From: Stappia sp. WLB 29
Lineage (GTDB): Bacteria; Pseudomonadota; Alphaproteobacteria; Rhizobiales; Stappiaceae
Direction of reading: 5' to 3'
Assembly (NCBI RefSeq): GCF_023507705.1
Contig: NZ_JALBGD010000002.1
Span: forward strand, 496,001-560,000
DNA length: 64,000 nucleotides
The notes under the pieces are model-generated. The model searched no databases. It had not been told where the DNA came from and was given only the letters and a program-made list of their open reading frames with translations. The translations under genes were made by a program, and so were the position numbers. Shown piece by piece: positions 38,546 through 56,790 of the stretch (position 1 is its first letter; every line of letters starts with the position of its first letter).

Positions 38546-38617
38546 GCTATTGCCGCAATCTATGCCCCGGCGGCCATTCTCGCCCTGCCGCAGCCCCTGC
38601 CATAGCCGCAATCAATG
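38546..38617. promoter_or_regulatory. LysR-type sites between CoA-transferase and CitE-like genes
   Basis: GCTATTGC-N6-CTATG at 38546-38564, with a T-N11-A core, matches the sites at 47733 and 53449. A second copy of its right part, GCCGCAATC(T/A)ATG, occurs at 38552-38564 and 38605-38617, 53 bp apart (about five helical turns). A further GCTATTG half-site lies at 38634-38640. Together they suggest cooperative LTTR binding in the divergent promoter. Confidence 0.68.
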
Positions 38618-38709
38618 AGGGCGGACGCAATTCGCTATTGGCCGGCGCGCGCCGCTCGCGCTTTTGTGGGCGCCTGCGACTTCTGACCAACCCATCCGGC
38701 GGACCCATC

Positions 38710-39549
38710 ATGACACATCGCAACGAGACGACCGCGAAGGTCGACCGCATCACCCTGCCGCTCTTCGTGCCCGGCGACCGGCCGGAGCGTTTCGCCAAGG
38801 CGGTCGCCGCCGGCGCCGACGCGGTCATCGTCGACCTGGAGGACGCGGTCGCGCCCGCCGCCAAGGAGGCGGCGCGTGCCGGGCTTGCCGAGGCACTGGC
38901 ACCACTGGTCGGCGAGGCGAGCATCCTGGTGCGCGTCAATGCCGGCGGCACGCCCTGGCATGCGGCGGATCTTGCCGCCTGCGCCGGCATTGCCGGTCTT
39001 GCCGGCGTCGTCCTGCCCAAGGCGGAGACGGGAGCCGATTGCGCCGGCGTTGCCGAGGCGACCGGCCTGCCGGTGATCGCGCTGGTGGAAAGCGCAAGAG
39101 GCCTTGCCAATGCCGGGGAGGTGGCCGGCGCCAGCGCTCGGCTCGCCTTCGGCTCCATCGATTTTGCCGCCGATCTCGGTATGGCGCACGCGCGCGAGGT
39201 GCTGCGCCCGGCCCGCTTCGCCCTGGCGATGGCCGCGCGCCTTGCCGGCCAGTGCGGCCCCATCGACGGGGTGACCACCGCACTCAAGGACGAGGAGGCG
39301 ATTGCCGGCGACTGCCGCCATGCGGTGGAGATGGGTTTTGCCGGCAAGCTAATCATCCATCCGGCGCAGATCGCTCCGGCGCGGCGGGGCTTTGCGCCGT
39401 CGCAGGCCGAGTGCGCGTGGGCGCAGCGGGTGCTTGCGGCCGTGGAGGGGGGCGCTGCGGCGGTCGCCGTCGACGGCGCGATGGTCGATGCGCCGGTGAT
39501 CATCAAGGCCCGGCAGATCCTGGCCCGCGCCGCCTCCGCCGCCGGCTGA
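38710..39549 (+). CDS. CitE-like CoA ester lyase (HpcH/HpaI aldolase family)
   Basis: Mg2+-dependent TIM-barrel lyase (279 aa). LFVPGDRPERFAKA (about 18-31) binds CoA, VIVDLEDAVAP (about 39-49) is the metal site, and LIALVESARGLANA-type and FGSIDFAADLG motifs (carboxylate ligands) follow; HPAQIAPA closes the barrel. Such enzymes cleave malyl-, methylmalyl- or citramalyl-CoA. Divergent from the CoA-transferase, with shared LTTR sites between, so it probably performs the final C-C cleavage to acetyl-CoA plus pyruvate or a similar pair. Exact substrate is inferred. Confidence 0.88.
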   Translation: MTHRNETTAKVDRITLPLFVPGDRPERFAKAVAAGADAVIVDLEDAVAPAAKEAARAGLAEALAPLVGEASILVRVNAGGTPWHAADLAACAGIAGLAGVVLPKAETGADCAGVAEATGLPVIALVESARGLANAGEVAGASARLAFGSIDFAADLGMAHAREVLRPARFALAMAARLAGQCGPIDGVTTALKDEEAIAGDCRHAVEMGFAGKLIIHPAQIAPARRGFAPSQAECAWAQRVLAAVEGGAAAVAVDGAMVDAPVIIKARQILARAASAAG

Positions 39550-39560
39550 CCGGGTTCCGC

Positions 39561-39610
39561 AAAAAAGACGCCCGTGCCATCGGCCAAAAAAAGACGCCCG
39601 TGCCATCGGC
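39561..39610. repeat. direct repeat duplicating half of a terminator
   Basis: A 24-bp unit (six A residues, then GACGCCCGTGCCATCGGC) occurs at 39561-39584 and 39587-39610, two bases apart. Only the second copy has the matching right arm of the hairpin, so the tandem duplication supplies two interchangeable left arms. Confidence 0.85.
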
Positions 39611-39620
39611 ACGGGCGTTT
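39586..39620 (-). terminator. terminator of the Liv/ALDH/SDR operon, bidirectional shape
   Basis: ACGCCCGTGCC (39594-39604) pairs with GGCACGGGCGT (39608-39618), an 11-bp perfect stem. On the minus strand it is followed by C and seven T residues (39592-39586), placing a strong terminator just after the SDR gene. On the plus strand only three T follow, so it may also weakly end citE transcription. Confidence 0.87.
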
Positions 39621-39663
39621 CCAGTGGTGGGGCAGGGGACCCCTGGCTGCTCGGTCAGACTGG

Positions 39664-40413
39664 CTAGATCGTGCGCCCGCCATCGACCTCGAGGATGACG
39701 CCGGTGATGAAGTCGGCTTCGTCCGAGGCGAGGTAAAGCGCGGCATTGGCGATGTCGCGCGGCTGCGACAGGCGGCCGAGCGGGATGGTGGCGAGGAATT
39801 TCGCCCGGTTCTCCGGCGTGTCCGGCATGCCCATGAACTGCTCCAGCAGGCCGGTGACGCCCATCACCGGGGCGATGCCGTTGACGCGGATCTTGTCGGG
39901 GGCGAGCTCGACGGCAAGGCTGCGGGTCATCAGGTTCACCGCGCCCTTCGACGAGTTGTACCAGGTCAGGCCCGGACGCGGCCGGATGCCGGCGGTCGAG
40001 CCGACATTGATCATCACGCCGGCGCCCTGCTCGCGCCAGATCGGCACGCAGGTCTTGGTCATGTGGAAGATCGACAGCACGTTGATGTCGTAGATCTTGC
40101 GGAAGGTCGCCTCGTCCGTCTCCATCAAGGGCCGGTTCGGGTTGGTCCAGCCGGCATTGTTGACCACGATGTCGAGCGAGCCGAAGGCATCGCAGGTCTT
40201 CGCCACGGCCGCCGCCACGTCCTCGGCCTTGGAGACGTCGCACTTGACGGCGATGGCCGCATCGCCGAGCTCGGCGGCGACGGCCCTGGCGCCGTCCTCG
40301 TTCAGGTCGACGATCGCCACCTTGGCGCCTTCGCGCACATAGGTCTCGGCGATGCCCTTGCCGAAGCCGGAGGCGGCGCCGGTGACGAGAGTGGTTTTTC
40401 CTTGAAGTCGCAT
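39664..40413 (-). CDS. SDR-family NAD(P)-dependent oxidoreductase
   Basis: Classical short-chain dehydrogenase (249 aa). Cofactor loop TLVTGAASGFGKGIA (TGxxxGxG, about residues 8-22), VNNAG motif in DIVVNNAGWTNP, the catalytic Ser in NVGSTAGI and Tyr/Lys in WYNSSKGA, where the YxxxK is read as YNSSK. Last gene of the cyclase-liv-ALDH operon; 13 nt from the ALDH stop. Probably interconverts an alcohol/ketone intermediate of the same pathway. Confidence 0.9.
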   Translation of the reverse strand: MRLQGKTTLVTGAASGFGKGIAETYVREGAKVAIVDLNEDGARAVAAELGDAAIAVKCDVSKAEDVAAAVAKTCDAFGSLDIVVNNAGWTNPNRPLMETDEATFRKIYDINVLSIFHMTKTCVPIWREQGAGVMINVGSTAGIRPRPGLTWYNSSKGAVNLMTRSLAVELAPDKIRVNGIAPVMGVTGLLEQFMGMPDTPENRAKFLATIPLGRLSQPRDIANAALYLASDEADFITGVILEVDGGRTI

Positions 40414-40426
40414 GTCTTTGCTGTCC

Positions 40427-41881
40427 TCAGCCGTGATTGTGGACGACGGTCTTGATGTGAGAGAATTCGTGCAGCGCCGCGAAGCCCTTCTCGCGGCCGT
40501 GGCCGGACTTGCGGATGCCGCCGAAGGGCAGCTCGATGCCGCCGCCCGCGCCGTAGCCGTTGATGAAGACCTGGCCGCAATGCATCGCCTTGGCGACGCG
40601 CTGCTGGCGGCCGCCGTCGCGGGTCCAGATGCCGGCGACGAGGCCGTATTCGGTGCCGTTGGCGATGCGGATCGCCTCCGCCTCGTCGTCGAAGGGGATG
40701 GCGCACAGAACGGGTCCGAACACCTCCTCCTGGGCGATTCTGGAGTTCGGGTCGCAGGGGCCGAACAGGGCGGCGGCGACGTAGTAGCCGCCTTCCGGCG
40801 AGCCCTTGGCGATGCTGCCGCGGGCGACCAGCGGTGCATCGGCCTCGGCGATATAGGTCTCCACCCGCTTCTTCTGGCGGGCCGAGATCAGCGGCCCGAG
40901 CACGGCGTCCTCGCCGGAACCGGAGGCCGCGACCGCCTCGAAGCGGGTCTTCAGCTCGGCCATCACCTTGTCGTAGATGCCCCGCTGCAACAGCACGCGC
41001 GAGCCGGCCGAGCAGGTCTGGCCGCCGTTCTGGATGATGGCGTTGACCAGCACCGGATAGACCGCGTCGAGATCGGCATCGTCGAAGATGATCTGCGGCG
41101 ACTTGCCGCCGAGCTCCAGCGTGCAGCCGATGAAGTTGCGCGCCGCCGCCGTCTGGATCAGCACGCCGACTTCCGGCGAGCCGGTGAAGGACAGGAAGTC
41201 GACCTTTCGATGCTCGGACAGGGCCTTGCCGGCGACCTCGCCGCGGCCGGTGACGATGTTGATGGCGCCGGCCGGGAAGCCGACCTCCATAGCCAGTTCG
41301 CCGATGCGCAGCGCCGTCAGGCAGGCGTCCTCCGCCGGCTTCAGCACGGTGGCGTTGCCCATGGCAAGTGCCGGGGCGATCGAGCGGCCGAACATCTGCG
41401 CCGGATAGTTCCACGGGATGATGTGGCCGGTGACGCCATGCGGCTCGCGCAGCACCTGCACGTTGTAGCCGTTGAGGAAGGGAATGACCTCGCCATGCAC
41501 CTTGTCCGCGGCGCCGCCGTAATATTCGAAGTAGCGGGCCGTCGCGATCATGTCGGCGCGCGCCTGCTTGATCGGCTTGCCGTTGTCCATGGTCTCGAGC
41601 CGGGCGAGCGCCTCGGCCTCCTCCAGGATGCGGTTGCCGAGGCGCACCATCAGCCGGCCGCGCTCGGCCGCCGTCAGCTTGGACCAGGGCCCGCCGTCGA
41701 ACGCGGCGCGGGCGGCCGCAACCGCCGCATCGACATCCTCGGGGCCGCTGTCGGCGATGCGGGTGAACACTTCGCCGTCGATGGGCGAGCGCACGTCCAT
41801 CTCCTTGCCGGAGGCCGCCGGCACCCATTTCCCGTCGATCAGGTTGAGGGCGCGGGGCAGGGGGACGTTTGTGACAGTCAT
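40427..41881 (-). CDS. NAD(P)-dependent aldehyde dehydrogenase
   Basis: ALDH superfamily enzyme (484 aa). Catalytic Cys290 in NGGQTCSAGSR and general-base Glu256 in LELGGKSP keep the canonical 34-residue spacing. The Rossmann segment IIPWNYPAQMFGRSIAPALAMGN and the C-terminal PFGGIRKSGHGREKG are intact. Its ATG overlaps the livF stop as TGATG, so it is coupled to the transporter. It likely oxidises an aldehyde formed by the zinc alcohol dehydrogenase or SDR to a carboxylate that the CoA-transferase then activates. Confidence 0.94.
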   Translation of the reverse strand: MTVTNVPLPRALNLIDGKWVPAASGKEMDVRSPIDGEVFTRIADSGPEDVDAAVAAARAAFDGGPWSKLTAAERGRLMVRLGNRILEEAEALARLETMDNGKPIKQARADMIATARYFEYYGGAADKVHGEVIPFLNGYNVQVLREPHGVTGHIIPWNYPAQMFGRSIAPALAMGNATVLKPAEDACLTALRIGELAMEVGFPAGAINIVTGRGEVAGKALSEHRKVDFLSFTGSPEVGVLIQTAAARNFIGCTLELGGKSPQIIFDDADLDAVYPVLVNAIIQNGGQTCSAGSRVLLQRGIYDKVMAELKTRFEAVAASGSGEDAVLGPLISARQKKRVETYIAEADAPLVARGSIAKGSPEGGYYVAAALFGPCDPNSRIAQEEVFGPVLCAIPFDDEAEAIRIANGTEYGLVAGIWTRDGGRQQRVAKAMHCGQVFINGYGAGGGIELPFGGIRKSGHGREKGFAALHEFSHIKTVVHNHG

Positions 41882-42558
41882 CAGTGGGTCCTTTCGTGCT
41901 CGAGCGAGCTTTCGGAGACTTCCCCGCGCTCGATCAGGAGCGTGCGGCTGGCGAAGCCGCGCAGCAGGGAGGGGTTGGATTCGGTGATGATCAGGGTCAC
42001 CGTCCGGTCGGCGTCGCGCAACGCCTTCAGCGCCTCGGCATAGCGCAGGGCCAGCGCCGGGGCGAGACCCTGGAACGGCTCGTCGAGCATGATGAGGCGG
42101 GTGCCCAGCATCAGGGCGCGGCCGAGGGCGACCATCTTGCCCTGGCCGCCGGAGACGTTGCCGGCCGGGCGGCCGGCCATCGTCTTCAGCTCCGGCAGGA
42201 TGTGGTAGACCCGGTCGAGCCGGCGTTTGGTCTCGGCCGCGTCCAGCTTGGCGACCTGCGCCGGCAGCAGGATGTTCTCCTCCACGGTGAAGGCGGAGAA
42301 CAGCCGCCGGTCCTCCGGCGCATAGCCGATGCCGAGGCCCGGGCGTTTTGCCGGCAACAGGCCGGTGATGTCCTCGCCCTCGAAGCGGATGCTGCCGGTG
42401 ACCGTGGTGAAGCCCATGATCGAGCGCAGCAAGGTGGTCTTGCCGGCGCCGTTGCGACCGATCAGGGCGACGGTCTCGGCGGCGGAGATGGTGACGTCGA
42501 GATTGCGCAGGATCGGGATGATGCCGATCGAGGCGCCGACATTGCTCAGTTCCAGCAT
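41881..42558 (-). CDS. livF: branched-chain amino acid-type ABC transporter ATP-binding protein LivF
   Basis: ATPase of 225 aa: Walker A GRNGAGKT (34-41), a Q-loop region with GIGYAPEDRRLF typical of LivF, signature NVSGGQGKMVALGRAL and Walker B LIMLDEPFQGLAP. Overlaps livG (TGATG at the livG stop) and the ALDH start. Forms the Liv ATPase heterodimer with LivG. Confidence 0.94.
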   Translation of the reverse strand: MLELSNVGASIGIIPILRNLDVTISAAETVALIGRNGAGKTTLLRSIMGFTTVTGSIRFEGEDITGLLPAKRPGLGIGYAPEDRRLFSAFTVEENILLPAQVAKLDAAETKRRLDRVYHILPELKTMAGRPAGNVSGGQGKMVALGRALMLGTRLIMLDEPFQGLAPALALRYAEALKALRDADRTVTLIITESNPSLLRGFASRTLLIERGEVSESSLEHERTH

Positions 42559-43307
42559 CACACGGCCTCCCCGATGACGTCGCGGATCACGTCGGGATGG
42601 CGCAGGATTTCCTCCGGCGATCCCTGCATCTGCAGCCGGCCGGCGGCCCACACGGCCACCTCGTCGGCGTAGCGCGAGACGATGCCCATGTCGTGCTCGA
42701 CGAAGACGCTCGTCACCTTCGCCTCGGACAGCGCCTTGACCAGGATTTCCATGATCTTGAACTTCTCCGAGGAGGCGACGCCCGAGGTCGGCTCGTCCAT
42801 CAGCAGCAGCTTCGGCCGCAGGGCCAGCGCCACGGCGATGTCGACCAGCTTGCGCTGGCCTTCCGAGAGCTCCACCACCAGCCGGTCGGCGACATCGGCG
42901 CAGCCGACCATGTCGAGCAGGTGCAGCATCTCGGCCCGCTCGCGGATGCGGTGCAGGTTCTGCAAGGGATGGCGCAGCTGCTCGCGGGCAGCGGCCGAGA
43001 TCAGCAGGTTTTCGAGCGCGGTGTGCTCGGTGAACAGCTGCGGGATCTGGAAGGCACGGGCAACGCCGAGGCGCACGATGCGGCGCGGCGGCAGCGGCGT
43101 GACGTCCTGGCCCTCGAAATAGACCTTGCCCCTGGTCGGCTTGATCCAGCCGGTGCAGATGTTGAGGAACGTCGTCTTGCCGGCGCCGTTCGGGCCGATG
43201 ATGGCGAGGTTCTTGCCCCGCTCGATGGCGAGCGACACGTCGTCGGCGGCGACGACGCCGCCGAAGCTGATCTGCAGGTTGCGGGCTTCGAGAAGGATCT
43301 CGCTCAT
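42558..43307 (-). CDS. livG: branched-chain amino acid-type ABC transporter ATP-binding protein LivG
   Basis: ATPase of 249 aa: Walker A GPNGAGKT (38-45), LivG-type VARAFQIPQLFTEHTALEN, signature ELSEGQRKLVDIAVAL, Walker B LLLMDEPTSGVAS and FVEHDMGIVSRYADEVAVW near the end. The signature has SEGQ rather than SGGQ, common in LivG. Overlaps livM at its start. Confidence 0.94.
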   Translation of the reverse strand: MSEILLEARNLQISFGGVVAADDVSLAIERGKNLAIIGPNGAGKTTFLNICTGWIKPTRGKVYFEGQDVTPLPPRRIVRLGVARAFQIPQLFTEHTALENLLISAAAREQLRHPLQNLHRIRERAEMLHLLDMVGCADVADRLVVELSEGQRKLVDIAVALALRPKLLLMDEPTSGVASSEKFKIMEILVKALSEAKVTSVFVEHDMGIVSRYADEVAVWAAGRLQMQGSPEEILRHPDVIRDVIGEAV

Positions 43308-44257
43308 TCCGACCTCCCTTTGCCGGTCAGGCGGGCCAGCGCCGCATCGTAGATGCCGATCACGCCCTTGGGCGCGAACAGGATGATGACGAGCAGGAAG
43401 CCGCCGAGCACCATCTGCCACACGTCGCCGGCAAAGGCCGAGGCGTAGGTGCGGATGGTCTCGTAGATGACCGCGCCCACGAAGGCGCCGGCGACCGAGC
43501 CGGCACCGCCCAGCACGGCGATGAAGACCATCTCGCCCGAGCGGATCCACCAGGCGAATTCCGGCGTCACGACGCCCTGGACGATGCCCATGATGACGCC
43601 GCCGGTGCCGCACAGGGCCGCCGACAGGATGTAGCCGGACAGCAGCGCGCGCTGCGGCGAGACGCCGAGATATTGCAGGCGGGTCTCGTTGGTCTTGATG
43701 GTCTGGAAGATCTGCCCGGCGGGCGAGGCGAACCAGCGCATGGTGAACCAGCCGAGAAGGAGCACCAGGGCCACCGACAGGTAGAACATGATCAGCTCGA
43801 ACGGGCCGCGCTCGAGCGCCATGCCGAACACGGTCGGGCGCGGTAGGCGGATGCCGTCGGCGCCGCCCGTGTAGTGGTAGAACTTCTCCAGGATCGACCA
43901 GAAGATCATCGAGAAGGCGAGGTTCAGCATGCCGAAGAAGATGCCGCGGTAGCGCACCACGAACAGGCCGACGATGATGCCGGACAGCACCGCGCCGGCA
44001 ACCGCGACGACGAGCACCAGCACGAGGTCGGCGCCGGGCATGGAGGCCGACAGGAAGGCGGCGGCATAGGCGGCGATGGCGAAGTAGAGCGCGTGGCCGA
44101 ACGAGACCTGGCCGGCGCGCAGCAGCACCGTCACGCCGACGACGGCGATGCCCTTGGCGAGCGCCAGGTTCATCAGGAGCTGAAGCTGCGGCGCGGCGAA
44201 GGGAATCGCGGCGACGGCGAGCACGAGAAGGGCCGGAATGGCCAGACGAAAGGTCAT
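43304..44257 (-). CDS. livM: branched-chain amino acid-type ABC transporter permease LivM
   Basis: Permease of 317 aa with about nine helices. LivM motifs: GQVSFGHALYFAIAAYAAAF (about residues 49-68), RYRGIFFGMLNLAFSMIFW and the late GGAGSVAGAFVGAVIYETIR followed by APKGVIG. Ten nt separate it from livH. Confidence 0.94.
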   Translation of the reverse strand: MTFRLAIPALLVLAVAAIPFAAPQLQLLMNLALAKGIAVVGVTVLLRAGQVSFGHALYFAIAAYAAAFLSASMPGADLVLVLVVAVAGAVLSGIIVGLFVVRYRGIFFGMLNLAFSMIFWSILEKFYHYTGGADGIRLPRPTVFGMALERGPFELIMFYLSVALVLLLGWFTMRWFASPAGQIFQTIKTNETRLQYLGVSPQRALLSGYILSAALCGTGGVIMGIVQGVVTPEFAWWIRSGEMVFIAVLGGAGSVAGAFVGAVIYETIRTYASAFAGDVWQMVLGGFLLVIILFAPKGVIGIYDAALARLTGKGRSE

Positions 44258-44267
44258 CCGTTCCTCC

Positions 44268-45173
44268 TCAGATCTTGCGGGCGGTCGGGCTGCCGAACAG
44301 CCCTTCCGGGCGCACCAGCAGGACGATCAGCATGATGAGATAGGGAACGAGCACCGCCGTCTCCGGCCAGACATAGACCGCGAAGGAGCGGCCGAGGCCG
44401 ATCAGCAGCGCGGTGAAGGCCGCGCCCTCGATCTGGCCGAGACCGGCTGTCGCCACCACGGCGAAGGACAGCACGATCATGTCCGCGCCCATGCCCGGCA
44501 GGATCGAGGTGGTGGGCGAAGCCAGCGCGCCGCCGAGCCCGGCAAGGGCCGCGCCGACGATGAAGGTCACCAGGAACACCTTGTCGGCGTCGATGCCGAT
44601 GGACTGGGCCGCTTCGCGGTCCTCGGTGGTCGCCAGGATCAGCTTGCCGAGGATGGTGTGGCGCAGGAAGAAGCGCAGGCCCACCAGCAGCGTCAAGGCC
44701 AGCAGCGGCAGCAGGATCAGCTGATAGACGGTGTAGTTGACGCCGAAGACCTTCACCATGCCGAGCGCCTGCAGCGCCGAGGCCTGGAAATAGGGCTGGG
44801 TACCCCAGACCAGCCGCTGCACGTCCTCCAGGATCATGAAGACCGCGAAGGTCACCAAGAGCTGGAGCACTTCCGGCTTGTTGTAGATCCGGCGCAGCAG
44901 CAGCCATTCGATGGGGCCGCCGAGCAGCACGCCGACCAGGACCGCCGAGACGATCATCAGCGGGAAGGCCAGCAGCGGCGCGAAGCCGAGCGCCAGCACG
45001 TAGCCGGTGAGCGTGGCCGTCAGATACGCGCCGACCGCATAGAGCGAGCCGTGCGCGACGTTGAGGATGCGCATCACGCCGAAGATCAGCGTGAGCCCCA
45101 CGGCGACACTGAAGACGAGGGCCGCATAGGCGATGCCGTCGAACAGGGCCAGAAGGAAGATGGTGAGGTTCAT
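44268..45173 (-). CDS. livH: branched-chain amino acid-type ABC transporter permease LivH
   Basis: Permease of 301 aa. LivH features: DGIAYAALVFSVAVGLTLIFGVMRILNVAHGSLYAVGAYL near the N-terminus (about 12-51), AGLGGALASPTTSILPGMGADMIVLSFAVVATAG in the middle and VRPEGLFG at the end. No strong Shine-Dalgarno is seen before the ATG at 45173. A 13-bp hairpin separates it from livK. Confidence 0.93.
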   Translation of the reverse strand: MNLTIFLLALFDGIAYAALVFSVAVGLTLIFGVMRILNVAHGSLYAVGAYLTATLTGYVLALGFAPLLAFPLMIVSAVLVGVLLGGPIEWLLLRRIYNKPEVLQLLVTFAVFMILEDVQRLVWGTQPYFQASALQALGMVKVFGVNYTVYQLILLPLLALTLLVGLRFFLRHTILGKLILATTEDREAAQSIGIDADKVFLVTFIVGAALAGLGGALASPTTSILPGMGADMIVLSFAVVATAGLGQIEGAAFTALLIGLGRSFAVYVWPETAVLVPYLIMLIVLLVRPEGLFGSPTARKI

Positions 45174-45236
45174 GGTCGTCCATTCGGTCGATGGGCGGAA
45201 CGGTCCGCAGGCTTGCCGCGGCGGCGTGTTTCGGAA

Positions 45237-45266
45237 CCGCCCCGGACGGGTCACCGTCCGGGGCGG
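45237..45266 (-). other. GC-rich intercistronic stem-loop between livK and livH
   Basis: CCGCCCCGGACGG (45237-45249) and CCGTCCGGGGCGG (45254-45266) form a perfect 13-bp stem with a GTCA-type tetraloop, in the 165-bp gap between binding-protein and permease genes. No T-tract follows on the minus strand. Likely attenuates downstream expression or protects livK mRNA. Confidence 0.8.
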
Positions 45267-45338
45267 GCCGGGAGGAAGGCCGGGGGGAGCGGACCCAGGC
45301 ACGCCTGCCCTGGTCCGCTCGTGCTGTCCCGGCGCTTC

Positions 45339-46625
45339 TTATTTTTCGTAGGTGTCGACTTTCACGCTCGCGGCATATTCCGGCGTGAGCTTGCTGACCC
45401 ATTCGACGGATTCCTGCCCGACCGGGGTGGTCAGCGCTTCGCCGTCGAAGATCATGATGTTTTCCAGCGTGGCGAAGGGATAGTCGCCGGACTGGACGCT
45501 CATGCCGAGGAGCTGGGCCTCGATGCCCTGGTTGTCTTCGCGGATGGTGACCTCACGACCGAGGCCCTGGAAGGTCAGGCCCTCGAAGGCTGCGATGACC
45601 TCGTCCTCTTCCGGCCATTCGCCGCCCTTGGCCGCGATCGCCTTCTCGTAGGCCGCCTTCAGCGCGGCCAGCGCCTGCGACATGTGGAAGACCGGGTAGA
45701 TCGCGTGGGCGCCGGTCTTCTCGCGGAACGCGGCCATGAACTCCTGGAAGTCCGCGTCGTCGCGACGGTCCGGATGCAGGAAGTAGTGGTCGCCGCGCGC
45801 GCCGACGATATGGCCGGCCGGCAGGGTCGAGCCGAGACGCTCCAGCGAGCTTTCGGCCAGCGGGATGACGAAGGTCGAGGTGTTCATCAGGCCGCGCTGG
45901 GCCGCCTGCTGGATGAACGTGTCGAGGTCGCCGCCCCAGGAGGTCGACAGGATGACGTCGGGCTGCATCGCCTGCAGGCGGGAGATCTCGGTCGAGAAGT
46001 CGGCGGCGCCGAACTTGGGGAAGAACTCGCCAACCACCTCGACGTCCGGCTTCAGGGCCTTCAGCGCGGCGGAGAAGATCTGCCAGCTGTCGCGGCCCCA
46101 GGCGTAGTCCTGGTTGACGACGGCGATGGTCTTGAAGTCCGGCTTCACCTTCAGCAGGTAGAGCACGGTGGCGAGCATTTCCGGCGTAGCGTTCGCCTGG
46201 GTCCGGAAGACGTACTTGTAGTCGTTCTGCTCGAAGATCTGCTGGGTGCCGCAGTCCCACATCAGGTTCAGGACCTGGAGGTCCTCCGCCAGCGGGGCGA
46301 GCGTCTGGCAGTTGCCGGAGGAGATCGCGCCCATCATGGCATGGGCGCCGCCCTCGACCTGGCGGCGGAACTCGGTGGTCAGCGCCTCGGCGCCGGCACC
46401 CTCGTCGATGAAGGACAGGGCGACCGGTACGCCGCCGATGCCGCCTTCGGCATTGAGCTTCTCGACGATGATCTCGGCCGCATCGCGCGCCGGCACGCCG
46501 AACACGGAGGCCGGGCCGGTGAGGAACGTGGTGATGCCGACCTTGAGCTCGGCCGGCTTTTCCGCCGCCAGCGCGGCGATCGGGGCAGCGAGGATCGCCG
46601 CCGTCGTGAGCAGGAATTTCCGCAT
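45339..46625 (-). CDS. livK: Liv-type ABC transporter substrate-binding protein
   Basis: Periplasmic receptor (428 aa) of the family-4 type. Signal peptide MRKFLLTTAAILAAPIAALA; mature part begins LKVGITTFLTGPASVFGVPARDAAEI. Other family features are GGAHAMMGAISSGNCQTLAP and VVNQDYAWGRDSWQIF. It is longer than typical amino acid LivK (about 370 aa), as seen in receptors for aromatic or branched acids. Second gene after the periplasmic cyclase, hence the ligand could be the cyclase product. Ligand inferred only. Confidence 0.9.
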   Translation of the reverse strand: MRKFLLTTAAILAAPIAALAAEKPAELKVGITTFLTGPASVFGVPARDAAEIIVEKLNAEGGIGGVPVALSFIDEGAGAEALTTEFRRQVEGGAHAMMGAISSGNCQTLAPLAEDLQVLNLMWDCGTQQIFEQNDYKYVFRTQANATPEMLATVLYLLKVKPDFKTIAVVNQDYAWGRDSWQIFSAALKALKPDVEVVGEFFPKFGAADFSTEISRLQAMQPDVILSTSWGGDLDTFIQQAAQRGLMNTSTFVIPLAESSLERLGSTLPAGHIVGARGDHYFLHPDRRDDADFQEFMAAFREKTGAHAIYPVFHMSQALAALKAAYEKAIAAKGGEWPEEDEVIAAFEGLTFQGLGREVTIREDNQGIEAQLLGMSVQSGDYPFATLENIMIFDGEALTTPVGQESVEWVSKLTPEYAASVKVDTYEK

Positions 46626-46687
46626 GGTTTCACTCCCTTCGAGTAGCCGCGGGCGATTGCGTGCCGCCCGCGTGTCCGTTTGCCCGA

Positions 46688-47653
46688 TCAGCGGATCGCG
46701 ATCGGGTTGATGATCATCTGCACCGCGCCCTTGAGGCGGGCCTGGCCGAGAACGAAGAGGAACTCGTACGCCTCGTCCTTCGCCAGTTCGCGGGTATCCA
46801 TGTTCTCCAGGATGTAGATGCCGTTCTGCGGCTGCAGGATCTGGTGGGCGCGGAATGCCTCGCCCTCGACCTCGGCCGGAACGACCTCCATGCCCCAGGT
46901 GTCGGCGCCCACCGCCATCACACCGAGTTCGGCGAGATATTCGGCGCCGCTGACGCCGAGGCCCGGCTCCGCCGCGCCGAAGCGCTTGGGATCCGGATTG
47001 GGCCCGTCGAGCAGGTTCATCCAGTTGGAGTTGAACAGGACGACGTCGCCCTCGCGCAGCTCGACGCCCTGCTGGGCGGCGGCGGCCTTGATGTCGTCGG
47101 CGGTGTAGGCCTTGCCTTCCTCGATCATGTCGACGCCGTAGAACTTGGCCATGTCGAGCAGCACGCCGCGGCCGACGAGGCCGGGCAGGTTGTGCAGGCC
47201 GAGTTCGGTCAGGCCCGCGGCCTTGGCGAAGTCGCCGGCTTTGTGGCCGTTGTAGTAGACATGGTCGATGCCGGCATGGCCGAGACCGTCGATCTGCGGG
47301 CCGATGCCGAGCCAGCCCATGAAGATGTCGTCGTTGTAGGTGAAGGCGTTTTCGCCCAGCCCGCTATTGGTGATCTGGTTGGGCTGGAGCACGGTCACGG
47401 ACAGGCTGCGCGGCGGAAAGGCCGGCGTGTCGCTGCCGACGATCATGCCGAGGCTGTAGACCTTGCCGGTGTTGACGAGTTCGGCGGCCAGCTTGATGCG
47501 CTCCGGCGTCATCAGGTTCGCCGACCCGATCTGGTCGTCCTTGCCCCAGCGCGATTCCGTCCATTGGTGATTGTGATTGTCGGCCTGGGCAAGGCTGGTG
47601 GCGACGACGAGCGCGAGCCCGGCGAGCGCCGCAGTGCAGTTGAAGACCCTCAT
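46688..47653 (-). CDS. periplasmic cyclase-family (kynurenine-formamidase-like) hydrolase
   Basis: Protein of 321 aa with a signal peptide (MRVFNCTAALAGLALVVATS, cleavage near LAQA) and a cyclase fold (PF04199 type). The metal-site region is IDGLGHAGIDHVYYNG (about residues 121-136, H126 and D130), a variant of the HxGTHxD motif. Relatives hydrolyse formamides, lactones or cyclic amides with Mn or Zn. As the promoter-proximal gene of an operon continuing into livKHMGF, ALDH and SDR, it probably opens a substrate in the periplasm before uptake. LTTR sites lie directly upstream. Confidence 0.86.
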   Translation of the reverse strand: MRVFNCTAALAGLALVVATSLAQADNHNHQWTESRWGKDDQIGSANLMTPERIKLAAELVNTGKVYSLGMIVGSDTPAFPPRSLSVTVLQPNQITNSGLGENAFTYNDDIFMGWLGIGPQIDGLGHAGIDHVYYNGHKAGDFAKAAGLTELGLHNLPGLVGRGVLLDMAKFYGVDMIEEGKAYTADDIKAAAAQQGVELREGDVVLFNSNWMNLLDGPNPDPKRFGAAEPGLGVSGAEYLAELGVMAVGADTWGMEVVPAEVEGEAFRAHQILQPQNGIYILENMDTRELAKDEAYEFLFVLGQARLKGAVQMIINPIAIR

Positions 47654-47702
47654 GGCTTTCCTCCCAAAGCATGTGAGATGAAGAAGCCTAGGTATTGCCG
47701 AC

Positions 47703-47860
47703 AGGGTGCACCAATAATTTGCTTGGTGCTCGGCTATTGCAAAAACCTATGACTGAAGCCGAAAAGCCATTTAAGCTCTGTCTTCACGCGTGTTTGCCGC
47801 TAGCATCCGCCCGACAGCGGGGTGCGATCCGCCGGCCGGCACGGCCCTGAGGGTGCACCA
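47703..47860. promoter_or_regulatory. divergent control region with LysR-type sites
   Basis: Between cyclase and zinc-ADH genes (47654-47924). GCTATTGC-N6-CTATG at 47733-47751 with a T-N11-A core is the shared LTTR motif, 80 bp before the cyclase start. Beside it is a perfect palindrome GCACCAA-N8-TTGGTGC (47708-47729), and AGGGTGCACCA occurs at 47703-47713 and 47850-47860. The LysR gene at 49071 is the obvious candidate regulator. Confidence 0.68.
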
Positions 47861-47924
47861 TCGCAAGCAAACGGGCAACGCCGCGCTGCGGCGGCGGCGA
47901 CCCTAGAGACAAAAGGGTGGAGAC

Positions 47925-49049
47925 ATGAAGATCACGGCGGCGGTGCTGGAGCGGGGCGAGGTCAAGGGCAACTACGCGGCGGAAAAGCCGCTGACCGTGC
48001 GCGAGGTCGAGCTGGCGCCGCCCGGTCCCGGCGAGGTCTTGATCCGCATCGCGGCCGCCGGCGTGTGCCATTCCGACCTCTCGGTGATCAACGGCACGCG
48101 GCCGCGTCCGCTGCCGATGGTGCTCGGCCACGAGGCCTCCGGCTATGTCGAGGAGGTCGGCGCCGGCGTCGACGACCTTGCGCCCGGCGATCATGTCGTG
48201 TGCATCTTCGCCCCCGGCTGCGGCCGTTGCACCCCTTGCGCGGAAGGCCGGCCGGCCTTGTGCGAGAAGGCGGCGAAGCATCACGGCGTCGGCGAGCTGA
48301 TGACCGGCCATCGCCGGTTGTCGATGGACGGGCGGCCCGTCCACCATCACGTCGGCATCTCCGCCTTCGCCAGCCATGCGGTGGTCGCGCGCCAGTCGCT
48401 GGTCAAGGCCGACCAGGACATCGCCCCGCACATCTCGACGCTGTTTTCCTGCGCCATGCTGACGGGCGCCGGCGCGGTATTCAACACCGCCCATATCAAG
48501 CCGGGCGCCAAGGTCGCGGTGGTCGGCATCGGCGGCGTCGGCATGGCCGCGATCCTCGGCGCGGCAGCCGCCGGAGCCGGGCAGATCGTCGCCATCGACC
48601 CGTTCGAGAACAAGCTCGAGGTCGCCCGCCAGATGGGCGCGACCGATGCGGTCAAGGCGGGCGAGGGCGTCGTCGAGGCGGTGCGGGACCTCACCGGCGG
48701 CGGCGTCGACTACGCGTTCGAGCTGGCCGGCTCGGTGCGAGCGCTGGAGACCGCCTACGACATCACCCGGCGCGGCGGCACCACGGTCACCGCCGGCCTG
48801 CCGCATCCGGATTCTCGCATGGCGCTCAACGCGCTGAAGCTGGTCGCCGAGGAGCGCTCGCTGAAGGGCAGCTATATCGGCTCCTGCGTGCCACAGCGCG
48901 ACCTGCCGCGCATGTTCGCGCTGCATCGCCGCGGCCTGCTGCCGGTGGAGAAGATGCTGAGCCACCGGCTGCCGCTTGCCGACATCAACCTGGCGATGGA
49001 CCGCCTGGAAGACGGTTCGGCGATCCGCCAGGTGGTGGAGATCGGTTGA
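47925..49049 (+). CDS. zinc-dependent alcohol dehydrogenase (MDR family)
   Basis: Medium-chain dehydrogenase of 374 aa. Catalytic zinc ligands in GVCHSDLSV and LGHEASGYVEEVG; structural zinc in PGCGRCTPCAEGRPALC (four Cys); further catalytic-site Cys in FSCAMLTGAGAV. NAD-binding VAVVGIGGVGMAAILGA. This resembles class III-like or aryl/short-chain alcohol dehydrogenases. The start at 47925 follows a GGTGGAG-like site. The LysR gene follows by 21 bp, suggesting co-transcription. It likely oxidises the imported alcohol to an aldehyde for the ALDH of the divergent operon. Confidence 0.92.
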   Translation: MKITAAVLERGEVKGNYAAEKPLTVREVELAPPGPGEVLIRIAAAGVCHSDLSVINGTRPRPLPMVLGHEASGYVEEVGAGVDDLAPGDHVVCIFAPGCGRCTPCAEGRPALCEKAAKHHGVGELMTGHRRLSMDGRPVHHHVGISAFASHAVVARQSLVKADQDIAPHISTLFSCAMLTGAGAVFNTAHIKPGAKVAVVGIGGVGMAAILGAAAAGAGQIVAIDPFENKLEVARQMGATDAVKAGEGVVEAVRDLTGGGVDYAFELAGSVRALETAYDITRRGGTTVTAGLPHPDSRMALNALKLVAEERSLKGSYIGSCVPQRDLPRMFALHRRGLLPVEKMLSHRLPLADINLAMDRLEDGSAIRQVVEIG

Positions 49050-49070
49050 AAACCGGCTAATCTGCCCTCC

Positions 49071-50009
49071 ATGGACATCCGCCACCTTCGCTATTTCATC
49101 GCCATTTCCGAGGCGCCGTCGCTCTCCGCGGCGGCGCAGGTGCTGGGCGTCGCCCAGCCGTCCCTGTCGCAATACGTCCAGCGCATGGAGCAGGAGCTCG
49201 GCGTGCAGCTGGTCGAGCGCTCGCCGCGCGGCACGATGCTGACCGAGGAAGGGCACCTCCTGGTGCGCCATGCCCGCGAGATCTGCGCCAGCATGGAGCA
49301 TTGCATCTCGGAGATGCGCGATCTCGGCGGCGGCATCCGCGGCAAGGTCGGCTTCGGCATGCCGCCCTCGGTGTCGATGGTGATGTCGGTGCCGCTGGCC
49401 GAGACCGTGCGGGTCGAGCTGCCGGACGTGCGGCTGCGCGCCATCGAGGCGATGAGCGGCTACATCAAGAGCTGGATCGAGGACGAGACGGTCGATATCG
49501 GCTTCATCTACGACCTGGAGAAGGTCGAGCATTTCCGCATCATCCATGTGCTGGACGAGCAGCTGTTCTTCTTCTCCGCGCCGGACACCTGGCCGCTCGA
49601 CACCCCGCCGGGAACGCCGGTGCCGATGCAGGCGCTGGAAAAGCTGGAGATGATCCTGCCCGGCGTTTCGCACGGGCTGCGCAAGACCATCGAGCGGCAC
49701 GCGGCGGCCTGCGACGTCGATCTCAACGTGGTCATCGAGATGGACGCGATGACCCAGATCAAGGAGCTGGTGGCGCGCGGCTCCGGCCACACGATCTTCG
49801 CGCCCGCCGCCGTGCACGACTTCGTCGCCCGCGGCGAGCTGCTCAAGGCGCCCATCGTCGAGCCGACGATCTCGCGTCCGGTCTATCTCGTCAGCAAGCC
49901 GGCCCGCTCGATGAGCCGGGCCTGCCGCGCGGTCGAGCAGATCACGCTGGAGGTCGCCCGCGACCTGGTGCGGCGCGGCATCTGGGAAGGCGACCTGATC
50001 GAGAGCTGA
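49071..50009 (+). CDS. LysR-family transcriptional regulator, candidate regulon activator
   Basis: LTTR of 312 aa. HTH DIRHLRYFIAISEAPSLSAAAQVLGVAQPSLSQYVQRMEQELG (about 2-45), linker helix to about 90, effector domain from GKVGFGMPPSVSMVMS. Nac/Cbl-like or tricarballylate-type sequence. It lies 21 bp after the ADH gene and beside the divergent promoter carrying the GCTATTGC-N6-CTATG motif. The same motif upstream of two other operons makes it the best local candidate to control all three. This assignment is inferred from position. Confidence 0.9.
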   Translation: MDIRHLRYFIAISEAPSLSAAAQVLGVAQPSLSQYVQRMEQELGVQLVERSPRGTMLTEEGHLLVRHAREICASMEHCISEMRDLGGGIRGKVGFGMPPSVSMVMSVPLAETVRVELPDVRLRAIEAMSGYIKSWIEDETVDIGFIYDLEKVEHFRIIHVLDEQLFFFSAPDTWPLDTPPGTPVPMQALEKLEMILPGVSHGLRKTIERHAAACDVDLNVVIEMDAMTQIKELVARGSGHTIFAPAAVHDFVARGELLKAPIVEPTISRPVYLVSKPARSMSRACRAVEQITLEVARDLVRRGIWEGDLIES

Positions 50010-50017
50010 GGCTCTTT

Positions 50018-50842
50018 CTAACGAGCCGTCGCTTGCATGGTGACAACCCCATCCTCGTCGCGCCGCACGCGCAGCGCCAAACCGCCGTCCTCGCCCTCGC
50101 GCGCTTCGACGCTCACCGGCCTCCCGCAGGTCAGCGGCGACAACCCGCGATAGGTGAAGGCTGCGGGGAGCTTGCCGAGCAGCGAGGCGGCAAGGTTCTG
50201 CATCCAGATCGACTGCAGCGGCCCGTGCACCACCAGCCCGTCATAGCCTTCCACGCCGGTGGCGTAGGGCTGGTCGTAGTGGATGCGGTGGCCGTTGAAG
50301 GTCAGCGCCGAATAGCGGAACAGCAGCGTCGGCGTCGGCGTCACCTGCCAGCGCGCCAGCAGCGCCTGCCAGTCTTCTGCCGGCTGCGGTGCGGTGCCGG
50401 CGCCGGGCTTGGGGTCCTCGCGATAGACGATGTCGTGGCGCTCGACGACATGGGCCTCGCCCGCCACCTCGTAGACATGGTCCAGCGTGACGAAACCGAG
50501 CGGCCCGCTGCGGCCCTGCTTGAAGGTCACGTCGCGGATCGTCGTCACGCGCGTCACCTCGTCGCCGGGCGAAAAGGCCTTGCGGTATTCCAGGTGGCCG
50601 CCCGCCCACATGCGCCGGGGCAGGGGGAGCACCGGCAGGAAGATGCCGGTGCGCGGATGGCCGTCGCGGCCGAGATCCGCCGGCTCCACCACGTCGGGCG
50701 CCAGGCACCAGTGCACGCCGGCCGGAACGTCGGTCTGCCACAGCATGCCCGACAGGGTCGCCCGGTAGCGCTCCAGCAGCTCGCGGTCGAGCGCCTCGCT
50801 CACCCGCCTTTGCTTGCCGATCCACTGCGCATAGTCGCTCAT
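50018..50842 (-). CDS. MaoC/HTD2-like acyl-CoA hydratase (mesaconyl/itaconyl-CoA hydratase-like)
   Basis: Double hot-dog protein of 274 aa (FAS1-like dehydratase). The hydratase motif is YSALTFNGHRIHYDQPYA (about 177-194), the MaoC-type N-x-H-x-I-H-x-D pattern, followed by GYDGLVVHGPLQ. Proteins of this architecture include mesaconyl-C4-CoA hydratase and itaconyl-CoA hydratases. Start at 50842 overlaps the PrpD gene stop. It is the last gene of the acyl-CoA dehydrogenase operon, so it should hydrate the enoyl-CoA made there to a citramalyl-CoA-like product. Confidence 0.86.
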   Translation of the reverse strand: MSDYAQWIGKQRRVSEALDRELLERYRATLSGMLWQTDVPAGVHWCLAPDVVEPADLGRDGHPRTGIFLPVLPLPRRMWAGGHLEYRKAFSPGDEVTRVTTIRDVTFKQGRSGPLGFVTLDHVYEVAGEAHVVERHDIVYREDPKPGAGTAPQPAEDWQALLARWQVTPTPTLLFRYSALTFNGHRIHYDQPYATGVEGYDGLVVHGPLQSIWMQNLAASLLGKLPAAFTYRGLSPLTCGRPVSVEAREGEDGGLALRVRRDEDGVVTMQATAR

Positions 50843-52158
50843 GCCCGTGCTCCCACCAGGGCGCCGAGGTCGGCGGCGGTGAGCGTGTCGAGCTTTTCGA
50901 CCGCCTGCCGCAGCCGTTCGCCCTCTTCGCCGAGCAGCGCCTTCGCCTTGGCGGAGAGGCCGGCGGACAGCTCCGCCTCGCCGAGCCGGCGGGCAAGATC
51001 GTGCGAGAAGGCGATGCTGCGCCCGTCCTTCAGCCGGAGCAGGCCCTTGGCCTGCATGTCGCTCAAGGCCGGGTCGCCGTCGACGGTGATGCTGTCGGCG
51101 AAGACGGCGAGCTGCGGATCGGCGGCGAGCGCGTCGGTATAGGTGTCGTCGCGCGCGGTATCGCGCCCGTCCAGCACCATGCCGGCCAGCCAGGCATAGC
51201 TGAACTTCACCTCCAGCCCGGTGCGCGGCGCCTTGATGTCGCAGACCGACAGCCAGCGCGGGTTGGTGTGCAGCACCATCGCCGCGACATCGTCGACGCC
51301 GATGCCTTCCTGCCCACGCACCGTGCGCAGCGCCTCGATCATCGCATGGGTGCCGTGGCAGCAGGCATGCAGCTTGTACTTGATGTCCTCGAACAGGAAC
51401 GTCTCCGGCGGCGGCGACTGCCAGGCGGCCTCCGGATCGGGCGTGTCGGAATGGGTGGGGATGAAGCCTTGCGCGTTCATCAACCCGTCGTCGGCGGAGG
51501 TGAAGCCGAGGGCCGCGAGCCTTGCGCATTCGACGCCATTGGCGGCGGCGATGCCCGCATTGTAGGGCTTGCCCATGGTGCCGAACTGCGACTTGAGGCC
51601 GGAGGCGCGGGTGGCGCACAGGCCGAGGGCGACGCGCATCTGCTCGCGGGTCAGGCCGAAGAGGCGCCCGGCGGCAATCGCCGCGCCGAAGGCGCCGGCC
51701 GTCGCCGTCTGATGGAAGCCGCGATTGTAGTGGACGGACCCCAGCGCCATGCCGATGCGGATGGAGCCTTCCGCGCCGACGAGGAAGGCTTCGACCACGG
51801 CCCGGGCGGCCGCGCCCATCGTCTCGCCGGCGGCAAGCGCCGCCGGATAGATGCCGACGGAGGTATGGCCGATATGGCCGAAATGGGTGTCGTCGTAGTC
51901 GAGCGCGTGGCTGGTCGCGCCGTTGACCAGCGCGGCCATGCGCGCCGGGGCGGGCGCGCCGCCGAAGACCGAGGCCGTGCCGCGGCCGCCTTCTTCCTCC
52001 GCAAGCTGGCGCAGCTTGCCCGCCAGCGGCTCGGTGATGCCGGCCCGCCCGCAGACCAGCCAGTCGAACAGCGAGAAGCGGGCCATGGCGAGTGCCGGAG
52101 CCGGCAACTCGTCGGCGGGTGTCATGGCAAGGTCGAGGATGCGGTCGATCAGCGTCAT
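50839..52158 (-). CDS. MmgE/PrpD-family protein
   Basis: Protein of 439 aa with the MmgE/PrpD two-domain fold. HALDYDDTHFGHIGHTSVGIYPAALA (about residues 84-109) is the conserved active-site stretch; KLHACCHGTHAMIEALR (about 285-301) is also typical. The family includes 2-methylcitrate dehydratase, cis-aconitate decarboxylase and iminodisuccinate epimerase, so dehydration, decarboxylation or epimerisation of a polycarboxylate is possible. It overlaps the acyl-CoA dehydrogenase by ATGA and the hydratase by its own stop, marking a tightly coupled unit. Confidence 0.88.
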   Translation of the reverse strand: MTLIDRILDLAMTPADELPAPALAMARFSLFDWLVCGRAGITEPLAGKLRQLAEEEGGRGTASVFGGAPAPARMAALVNGATSHALDYDDTHFGHIGHTSVGIYPAALAAGETMGAAARAVVEAFLVGAEGSIRIGMALGSVHYNRGFHQTATAGAFGAAIAAGRLFGLTREQMRVALGLCATRASGLKSQFGTMGKPYNAGIAAANGVECARLAALGFTSADDGLMNAQGFIPTHSDTPDPEAAWQSPPPETFLFEDIKYKLHACCHGTHAMIEALRTVRGQEGIGVDDVAAMVLHTNPRWLSVCDIKAPRTGLEVKFSYAWLAGMVLDGRDTARDDTYTDALAADPQLAVFADSITVDGDPALSDMQAKGLLRLKDGRSIAFSHDLARRLGEAELSAGLSAKAKALLGEEGERLRQAVEKLDTLTAADLGALVGARA

Positions 52159-53336
52159 GCCTTCGGGGCCCCGTAGGATTTCGGCAGGCCGAGCACCTGC
52201 TCGGCGATGAAGCACAGGATCAGGTTGGTGGAGATCGGCGCCACCTGGTAGAGCCGCGCCTCGCGGAACTTGCGCTCCACGTCGTATTCCTCGGCGAAGC
52301 CGAAGCCGCCATGGGTCTGCAGGCAGGCCTCGGCCGCTTCCCAGCTGGCGTCGGCGGCCAGCATCTTGGCGCTGTTGGCTTCCACCCCCGGATTGTGGCC
52401 GGCATCGTACATGGCGGCGGCACGGTAGACGATGGCCTCGGCCGCCATCATGTGCGCATAGGCGCGGGCGAGCGGGAACTGCACGCCCTGGTTTTGGCCG
52501 ATCGGCGCGCCGAAGATCACCCGCTCCTTGGCGTAATTGGAGCCCTTCTCGATGAACCACTTGGCATCGCCGATGCACTCGGCGGCGATCAGGATGCGCT
52601 CGGAATTCATGCCCGACAGGATGTAGCGGAAGCCCTTGCCTTCCTCGCCGATCAGACTGGAGGCGGGGATGCGCGCATTGTCGAAGAAGATCTCCGTCGT
52701 CGCGTGGTTGATCATCGTGCGGATCGGGCGGATCTCGACGCCGTTGCCCTTGAGCTCGCGCAGGTCGATGAGGAACACCGACAGGCCGTCGGTCTTCGAC
52801 TTCACCTGGTCGCGCGGCGTCGTGCGGGCCAGCAGAACCATCAGGTCGGAGTGCTCGGCGCGGGAGATCCAGATCTTCTGGCCGTTGACGATGTAGTCGT
52901 CGCCATCGCGCTTTGCCGTCGTCTTCAGCGCCAGCGTGTCGGTGCCGCTGGTCGGCTCGGTCACGCCGAAGGCCTGCAGGCGCAGCGTGCCGTCGGCGAT
53001 GCCGGGCAGATACTTCTGCTTCTGCTCGTCGCTGCCGTGCCGCAGCACGGTGCCCATCGTGTACATCTGGGCGTGGCAGGCGGCGGCGTTGCAGCCGTTG
53101 CGGTGGATCTCCTCCAGGATCACGGCGGAGGCCGACAGGTTCAGGCCCGACCCGCCATATTCCTCCGGGATCATCGCGGCGAGATAGCCCTCGCGGATCA
53201 GGGCGTCGACGAAGTCCTTGGGATAGGCGCGGCGCGCATCGAGGTCGCGCCAGTATTCGCCGGGGAACTCGGCGCAGACCTTGGCGACACCGTCGCGAAT
53301 GGCACTGTATTCGGCTGTCGGATCGAAGGCGTTCAT
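52155..53336 (-). CDS. acyl-CoA dehydrogenase
   Basis: FAD-dependent dehydrogenase of 393 aa. N-terminal helical domain; IPEEYGGSGLNLSASAVILEEIHRNG; FAD-site strands in QAFGVTEPTSGTDTLALKTTA and KIWISRAEHSD; C-terminal QTHGGFGFAEEYDVERKFREARLYQV with the catalytic-region Glu. It introduces the double bond in a saturated acyl-CoA, plausibly a branched dicarboxylyl-CoA. First gene of the operon. The LTTR motif at 53449 lies 113 bp upstream. The 238-bp region 53337-53574 holds that site and no further gene. Confidence 0.93.
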   Translation of the reverse strand: MNAFDPTAEYSAIRDGVAKVCAEFPGEYWRDLDARRAYPKDFVDALIREGYLAAMIPEEYGGSGLNLSASAVILEEIHRNGCNAAACHAQMYTMGTVLRHGSDEQKQKYLPGIADGTLRLQAFGVTEPTSGTDTLALKTTAKRDGDDYIVNGQKIWISRAEHSDLMVLLARTTPRDQVKSKTDGLSVFLIDLRELKGNGVEIRPIRTMINHATTEIFFDNARIPASSLIGEEGKGFRYILSGMNSERILIAAECIGDAKWFIEKGSNYAKERVIFGAPIGQNQGVQFPLARAYAHMMAAEAIVYRAAAMYDAGHNPGVEANSAKMLAADASWEAAEACLQTHGGFGFAEEYDVERKFREARLYQVAPISTNLILCFIAEQVLGLPKSYGAPKA

Positions 53337-53448
53337 GGTCTTTCCTGAGAACTTGGGTGGACCGAGGCACGCGGGCCGGCCCGGAAATTCGGCTGGCCGC
53401 AAAATCGCAGGTCCGGCGGCCGGCCGGAAATATCTTTGCATGCACGGA

Positions 53449-53467
53449 GCTATTGCGCAGCCCTATA
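53449..53467. promoter_or_regulatory. LysR-type site upstream of the acyl-CoA dehydrogenase operon
   Basis: GCTATTGC-N6-CTATA with a T-N11-A core; extended by one base it contains the symmetric halves CTAT-N11-ATAG (53450-53468). Same orientation relative to the minus-strand operon as the sites at 38546 and 47733. Confidence 0.66.
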
Positions 53468-56756: not shown

Positions 56757-56790
56757 CGCGATGCGGTCGGTGGGGGGACGGTGGCGCGCC

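Follow-up and report, generated by a model that had tools for sequence, protein, structure and literature searches.

A putative 38-bp LysR-type operator in Stappia sp. WLB 29 and a probable regulon for the degradation of C5 branched dicarboxylates

A stretch of 64,000 nucleotides of the Stappia sp. WLB 29 genome (positions 496,001 to 560,000 of contig NZ_JALBGD010000002.1; hereafter the window) carries three copies of a 19-bp motif, GCTATTGC-N6-CTATR, each ahead of a different operon. This raises the question of whether the copies mark a regulon, and if so, which regulator would act on them and what the genes would accomplish together. The explanation we favor, and consider probable as a whole, is that a 38-bp operator precedes four gene units which would be activated by the LysR-type regulator encoded at 49071 (LysR 49071) and would serve the degradation of C5 branched dicarboxylates. 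The operator sequence, its spacing, its conservation, its exclusivity in the genome and the families of the genes were observed directly.

The motif and the operator of which it is part

Exact searches of the window located the motif at 38546-38564, 47733-47751 and 53449-53467, in all cases on the + strand. These copies lie 78, 80 and 113 bp, respectively, ahead of the minus-strand ATG codons of a CoA-transferase (38468), a putative cyclase (47653) and an acyl-CoA dehydrogenase (ACAD; 53336), and all three keep T5-N11-A17, bearing out the positions and distances given in a sequence-only reading of this DNA that had proposed the regulon. That reading had also judged that such a motif would be expected far less than once by chance. 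The three copies are the only exact ones in the whole genome (4,745,415 bases in 37 contigs). Only exact copies are informative, since at up to two mismatches the genome gave 80 matches versus 90 for a reversed control; at up to three mismatches the window gave 20 matches versus 10.1 expected, so that looser matches are mostly noise. Across 14 genomes of the genus there were 15 exact copies, spread over six genomes and all at the orthologous locus, compared to three matches for the reversed pattern, and matches at one mismatch were present in most relatives.

As originally written, the motif was real but incomplete. Alignment of promoters identifies it as the upstream part, or regulatory binding site (RBS), of a 38-bp LysR-type operator, ATAG-N7-CWATRNC-N16-TATT. 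The promoter set comprised 42 members (15 CoA-transferase, 15 ACAD and 12 cyclase), counted where at least 80 bp were free upstream, the gene had at least 45% identity and its match started no later than residue 40; for relatives, start codons were estimated with tblastn and distances are therefore approximate. A scan for ATAG-Nk-CTAT with at most one mismatch gave 37 matches at k=7, eight of them exact, in 30 of the 42 promoters (2.35 expected), and only 0-6 matches for any of the remaining spacers between k=2 and k=14. In 29 promoters the best dyad had at most one mismatch; when these were aligned on it, TATT, which was not a selection criterion, was found at +34 in 25 of them, versus a top count of six for any 4-mer in 500 random-shift trials. 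Together, the dyad (up to two mismatches) and TATT were present in 34 of the 42 promoters (CoA-transferase 11/15, ACAD 11/15, cyclase 12/12), compared with 0 of 20000 random windows taken by the same procedure from these loci outside the target regions, and two of 8400 shuffles of the target promoters. Chance as the origin of the motif and operator was rejected on the exact-copy counts, the controls, the random windows and the shuffles.

Downstream of TATT, an A at column 62 was present in 28 and a T at column 66 in 26 of these 34 promoters (both in 23), and in 22 of the 34 the start of the best -10-like hexamer fell 22 nt after TATT, at column 61. A transcription start at column 73 would place the dyad center at -65 and TATT at -38 to -35. 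The regulatory dyad of LysR-type promoters typically lies near -65. Such promoters are described as having a pair of sites, of which the activation site lies near -35 (PMC4617489), and the layout here, with both a T-N11-A dyad and a second site, would be that of a textbook LysR-type regulatory-site/activation-site promoter. It also resembles the multi-site model built on the LysR-family consensus CTATA-n9-TATAG (PMC5002191), in which the ATA-N9-TAT dyad would be the strong site accompanied by a further site downstream. Unlike that general consensus, the operator is a specific new instance with flanking bases of its own, a G two bases before ATAG and RNC after CWAT.

Within the genome the composite operator has exactly three sites without mismatch and one with a single mismatch, at 38602-38639. 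Two mismatches correspond to noise in the genome scan, since the 12 further sites at that level compare with 10 control matches in all. A variant with N6 in place of N7, which serves only as a control, gave one unrelated match versus five for its reversed pattern. The one-mismatch site faces a CitE-like gene and is kept in three relatives (one mismatch each in L059 and L060, two in L061). The divergent CitE-like gene had previously been placed in the regulon; its membership is supported, with the amendment that it has an operator of its own besides the CoA-transferase site, the two standing back to back. The divergent alcohol dehydrogenase (ADH)-LysR pair is faced by a weaker site at 47701-47738, whose sequence is identical in L059 and which we regard as a possible, unproven operator.

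The identity of the three motif copies at all 12 fixed positions might also suggest a recent duplication of promoter DNA, or a repeat element that plays no part in regulation. This is extremely improbable, as the copies diverge in their six spacer bases and in their flanks, while ATAG, CWAT, TATT and two columns of the -10 region are conserved across genera. A repeat element was accordingly rejected on the differences in spacers and flanks between copies.

Conservation of the operator and the identity of its regulator

Searches with LysR 49071 gave orthologues in 16 of 87 family genomes, 14 of which reached at least 51% identity, and in 23 named loci, of which 22 were usable, from Stappia, Roseovarius, Halovulum, Salipiger, Paracoccus, Pacificispira, Rhodobacter and other genera. 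Thirteen 20-kb stretches, the 22 named loci and the window made up 36 loci, 28 of which were non-redundant (eight were dropped); L091 (32% over 97 residues) and the 36% LysR paralogues in G078 and G099 were left out. All of these loci were retrieved with the LysR as query, so that its occurrence there follows by construction, and the informative features are gene content, gene order and promoter sequence. Plasmid searches returned LysR relatives (67-75%) in four records, with MaoC relatives near the LysR in three, and these records were left out of the counts.

Conservation at orthologous promoters, on which the sequence-only reading had staked its proposal, was found in several genera: the operator is kept in Stappia, Roseovarius, Halovulum, Salipiger, Paracoccus and others, including at rearranged loci, with the full element lacking in eight of the 42 promoters. 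In Roseovarius-type loci (REARRANGEMENTS), the LysR gene either adjoins a divergent CoA-transferase (L077, L080) or lies downstream of the ADH gene (L073), the ACAD gene is on the other side of the LysR, and the operator precedes both the CoA-transferase and the dehydrogenase, oriented toward their start codons. Where PrpD heads the operon (L062, L063, L084, L090), an operator with one or two mismatches lies 87-90 bp before PrpD, and at loci without a cyclase it is livK that the operator precedes, with no mismatch in L059 and L063 and with two in L075. The L063 cyclase is reduced to N- and C-terminal remnants, and L059 and L075 have no trace of it in the stretch examined; the operator stays. 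The operator precedes whichever gene heads the operon, and its tracking of the target genes through rearranged orders is hard to explain without a shared regulator.

Among the 87 family genomes there were 26 exact matches to the composite, versus two for the reversed control. Nine genomes account for the 21 matches that fall in the LysR locus, and five lie elsewhere. Three of these five, in G082, G033:C2 and G106, are near-identical to one another and may be a conserved promoter of something else.

LysR 49071 was detected (E up to 1e-50) in seven of the 14 genus genomes, and the seven without it at that threshold had zero exact copies of either motif or operator, which supports the earlier proposal of one regulon probably under this LysR. 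G001, whose LysR is 87% identical, had no exact 19-bp motif copy despite its LysR. It is very unlikely that the regulon and operator are real and controlled by another LysR-type protein, either that encoded at 34779-35711 or a paralogue elsewhere in the genome. Similar sites are common among LysR-type proteins, a related operator accompanies paralogous genes where LysR 49071 is absent, and the gene at 34779 is nearby. However, this second LysR, found (E up to 1e-80) in 10 of the 87 family genomes, was not found at that threshold in G001, G003 and G004, which carry two, two and three exact operators, while a 53% relative of it is present in G009 and G013, genomes with zero exact operators. In the genus, the operator tracks LysR 49071, not LysR 34779, and the latter was rejected as regulator because its distribution does not follow the operator. 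We infer that LysR 49071 is the regulator of the set. No composite operator with up to two mismatches was found near 34779-35711, which adjoins a gene (33647-34621) that reads like a TAXI-type TRAP binding-protein gene.

The protein encoded at 49071 is a LysR-type transcriptional regulator, with matches over the cut-offs to PF00126 (75.0 bits, cut-off 26.6) and PF03466 (102.6 bits, cut-off 28). Among solved structures, OxyR and BenM are closest to it in sequence, with Corynebacterium glutamicum OxyR the best PDB match, and the fold of its predicted model (mean pLDDT 83.4, pTM 0.67) is closest to OxyR (C. glutamicum best) and CbnR, with BenM further down. The operator also has similarities to that of OxyR, ATAG-N7-CTAT-N7-ATAG-N7-CTAT (PMC5720770), as it has the same dyad and 11-bp phase, and as the conserved blocks, at positions 1, 12 and 34, correspond to three of the four quarter sites. 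Unlike in OxyR operators, no conservation of ATAG is seen at the third quarter site (positions 23-26) in the 34 promoters. Furthermore, the sole nearly invariant cysteine among 21 orthologues is C78, in the helix spanning residues 59-85, and LysR 49071 therefore has no conserved OxyR-type redox pair. OxyR membership was rejected on the lack of that pair and of four conserved quarter sites.

ItcR of Yersinia pseudotuberculosis and RipR of Salmonella are LysR-type regulators of itaconate genes (PMC11275114, PMC9637912, PMC9636186), and LysR 49071 is similarly encoded beside genes of the ict-ich-ccl kind. The match to ItcR (7w06; structures 7w06-7w08, PMC9636186) spans only residues 1-163 at 59.5 bits, below BenM or OxyR, and ItcR was not among the best 50 fold matches of the model. 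An Arg contacts the ligand in BenM, RipR and ItcR (Arg148; PMC9637912, PMC11275114), for which LysR 49071 has no Arg counterpart as judged via the BenM alignment. In addition, ItcR is described as a repressor (PMC11275114), whereas the layout here suggests an activator. Membership with ItcR was rejected on the missing Arg and the weak partial match.

Target genes and their probable pathway

The features of the locus are listed in Table 1. The target genes are homologues of all five families of the pseudomonad itaconate/methylsuccinate pathway, accompanied by a LIV-type importer and alcohol and aldehyde dehydrogenases. In pseudomonads the pathway is encoded by a five-gene cluster of ich, mcd, mmgE/msi, ict and ccl (PA0878-PA0883; PMC12290011, PMC9875883). 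Here, homologues of the five enzyme families likewise lie within one 16-kb stretch, but are split over three operator-bearing units, in contrast to the single pseudomonad cluster and to a second, more compact cluster (the paralogous set described below) in other family members. The importer under the operator is a LIV-type ABC system, whereas Pseudomonas aeruginosa has the TRAP transporter IctPQM (PMC12599236). Alphaproteobacteria have been reported to encode 78 isomerases of this kind (PMC12290011), and the word LysR was not found in the main text of that report.

Table 1. Positions of the operators, -10-like hexamers and genes in the window
Feature	Position	Strand	Remarks
Operator 1, ATAG-N7-CAATAGC-N16-TATT	38526..38563	-	0 mismatches; kept in relatives; 57 nt before CoA-transferase ATG; overlaps motif 38546-38564
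Operator 2	47713..47750	-	0 mismatches; before cyclase-livKHMGF-ALDH-SDR; overlaps motif 47733-47751
Operator 3	53429..53466	-	0 mismatches; before acyl-CoA dehydrogenase-PrpD-MaoC; overlaps motif 53449-53467
Operator 4	38602..38639	+	Sole 1-mismatch match in genome; 70 nt before CitE-like ATG
Weak possible operator facing ADH-LysR	47701..47738	+	2 mismatches, noise level; overlaps operator 2
-10-like hexamer CATACT	38498..38503	-	22 nt after operator 1 TATT; promoter alignment
-10-like hexamer TAGGCT	47685..47690	-	22 nt after operator 2 TATT; promoter alignment
-10-like hexamer GATTTT	53401..53406	-	22 nt after operator 3 TATT; promoter alignment
Two methyltransferases	35715-36602, 36644-about 37402	-	Downstream of CoA-transferase; start of second unclear
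CoA-transferase family III, proposed Ict (itaconate/methylsuccinate CoA-transferase)	37335..38468	-	CoA_transf_3; Ict from context
CitE-like lyase, proposed Ccl ((S)-citramalyl-CoA lyase)	38710..39549	+	HpcH_HpaI
Short-chain dehydrogenase/reductase (SDR)	39664-40419	-	Family match
Aldehyde dehydrogenase (ALDH)	40427-41881	-	Family match
livK, livH, livM, livG, livF, LIV-type ABC importer	41881..46625	-	ORFs; named by sequence reading
Putative cyclase (PF04199)	46688..47653	-	Signal-peptide-like N-terminus by reading
Zinc alcohol dehydrogenase (ADH)	47925..49049	+	Divergent from cyclase, upstream of LysR
LysR-type regulator, proposed regulator	49071..50009	+	HTH_1 and LysR_substrate over Pfam cut-offs
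MaoC/FAS1-DH-type hydratase, proposed Ich (itaconyl-CoA hydratase)	50018..50842	-	PDB matches
MmgE/PrpD protein, proposed methylsuccinate isomerase	50839..52158	-	MmgE_PrpD_N and _C over cut-off
Acyl-CoA dehydrogenase, proposed Mcd (methylsuccinyl-CoA dehydrogenase)	52155..53336	-	Function from context and PMC12290011

The best PDB matches of the CitE-like protein are 9nzb and 8khl (214-215 bits), which we take to be pseudomonad (S)-citramalyl-CoA lyase. The MaoC protein has just two PDB matches, both at about 200 bits: 8khg, annotated as itaconyl-CoA hydratase, and 8huc, which is nearly identical to it. The best matches of PrpD are Bacillus subtilis IRG1 and IDS-epimerase, and the sole match of the cyclase is the uncharacterised 5ibz. 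Directly upstream of the ACAD promoter and on the same strand, 53575-57840 looks from its sequence like an operon for an ABC transporter, with genes for an ATPase, a permease and a binding protein, before which no composite operator with up to two mismatches was found.

In the mechanism we propose, the operator-bearing units would be four: CoA-transferase-methyltransferases, the CitE-like lyase, cyclase-livKHMGF-ALDH-SDR, and ACAD-PrpD-MaoC. A dimer of LysR 49071 would occupy the dyad near -65 and a second dimer the TATT block at -38 to -35, and transcription would be activated when a pathway metabolite is present. Ict would then activate itaconate or methylsuccinate, Mcd and the isomerase would process methylsuccinate, Ich would carry out the hydration and Ccl would split (S)-citramalyl-CoA to acetyl-CoA and pyruvate, with the LIV importer and dehydrogenases providing substrate. 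The roles of LysR 49071 as binder and activator, the transcription start, the units and the effector are predictions from sequence, as are the identity of the pathway as that of itaconate/methylsuccinate, the enzyme specificities and the substrate.

Potentially, the operator and LysR are assigned correctly and the pathway acts on a related branched acid made from a LIV substrate. The LIV-cyclase-ALDH-SDR unit shares the operator, in all 12 cyclase promoters, yet has no place in the known pathway; the best PDB matches of the CoA-transferase and ACAD are unspecific, and the usual carboxylate Arg is missing from the LysR. We nevertheless consider this unlikely, as the MaoC protein matches solely hydratases of the itaconyl-CoA type in the PDB, the nearest matches of the CitE-like protein are 9nzb and 8khl, and the five pathway families occur all together.

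Several results weigh against the itaconate/methylsuccinate regulon as we propose it. With respect to the operator, the full element was not found in the eight promoters mentioned above (CoA-transferase L068, L085, L087 and L089; ACAD L061, L065, L067 and L086), and five of 14 LysR-carrying family genomes had no exact composite match. Other family members have paralogous dehydrogenase-transferase-hydratase-lyase sets (L120-L138, L150-L162; ACAD 62-65% and CoA-transferase 49-54% identical); at five loci the set adjoins a LysR gene whose product is about 35% identical. Thirteen paralogous ACAD genes from 12 genomes without a 49071-type LysR were searched for composite matches at one or two mismatches, and a looser operator, with ATAT or ATAC for ATAG, was found before four (L124, L131, L137, L138) and no match before the other nine, in at least two of which (L122, L136) ACAD follows another gene of the set. 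Composite matches with one and two mismatches were also found for the paralogous ACAD of G014 and G017, two genomes that do carry the LysR. The architecture is therefore common to sister regulators and not exclusive, and ATAG may be the distinguishing part of the 49071-type operator. With respect to the enzymes, the CitE-like protein scored 149.5 bits against the NCBIfam RipC_Ccl model, under its cut-off of 375; the lyase model NF038242 had five matches in the genome, none over cut-off, with the window gene second best. The PDB matches of the CoA-transferase, ACAD and PrpD are at superfamily level, and their scores do not prove specific enzymes. Lastly, Leu149 of LysR 49071 aligns with the carboxylate-binding Arg of BenM, and the nearby Y147 and D148 are invariant in the 21 orthologues with no conserved Arg in the vicinity; the effector therefore may not be itaconate itself.

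Implications for methylsuccinate and itaconate metabolism

The TATT block and -10 hexamer at fixed distances, the CitE operator and the pathway go beyond what was first read from the sequence. LysR-type regulons of this kind of architecture are known, and the regulon, the operator and the link to LIV and dehydrogenase genes were not found described in the mostly non-subscription literature searched. What began as a motif recognized by eye can now be tested as a regulon that has a defined 38-bp operator, together with a promoter layout, a regulator and a pathway, and LysR 49071 is a candidate for sensing a C5 dicarboxylate or a related compound.

Tentatively, and with more doubt than conviction, we suggest that the LIV importer, the probably exported cyclase-family hydrolase, the ALDH and SDR and the divergent ADH constitute an undescribed feeder pathway to methylsuccinate/itaconate, whose source may be an alcohol, aldehyde, lactone or amide from the environment, and that the LysR which senses it has an effector pocket of a non-standard kind. 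The environmental origin of methylsuccinate was unclear until recently (PMC12290011), and the co-regulated importer and dehydrogenases represent a concrete lead to its source. If true, the feeder link would span Alphaproteobacteria, many of them marine.

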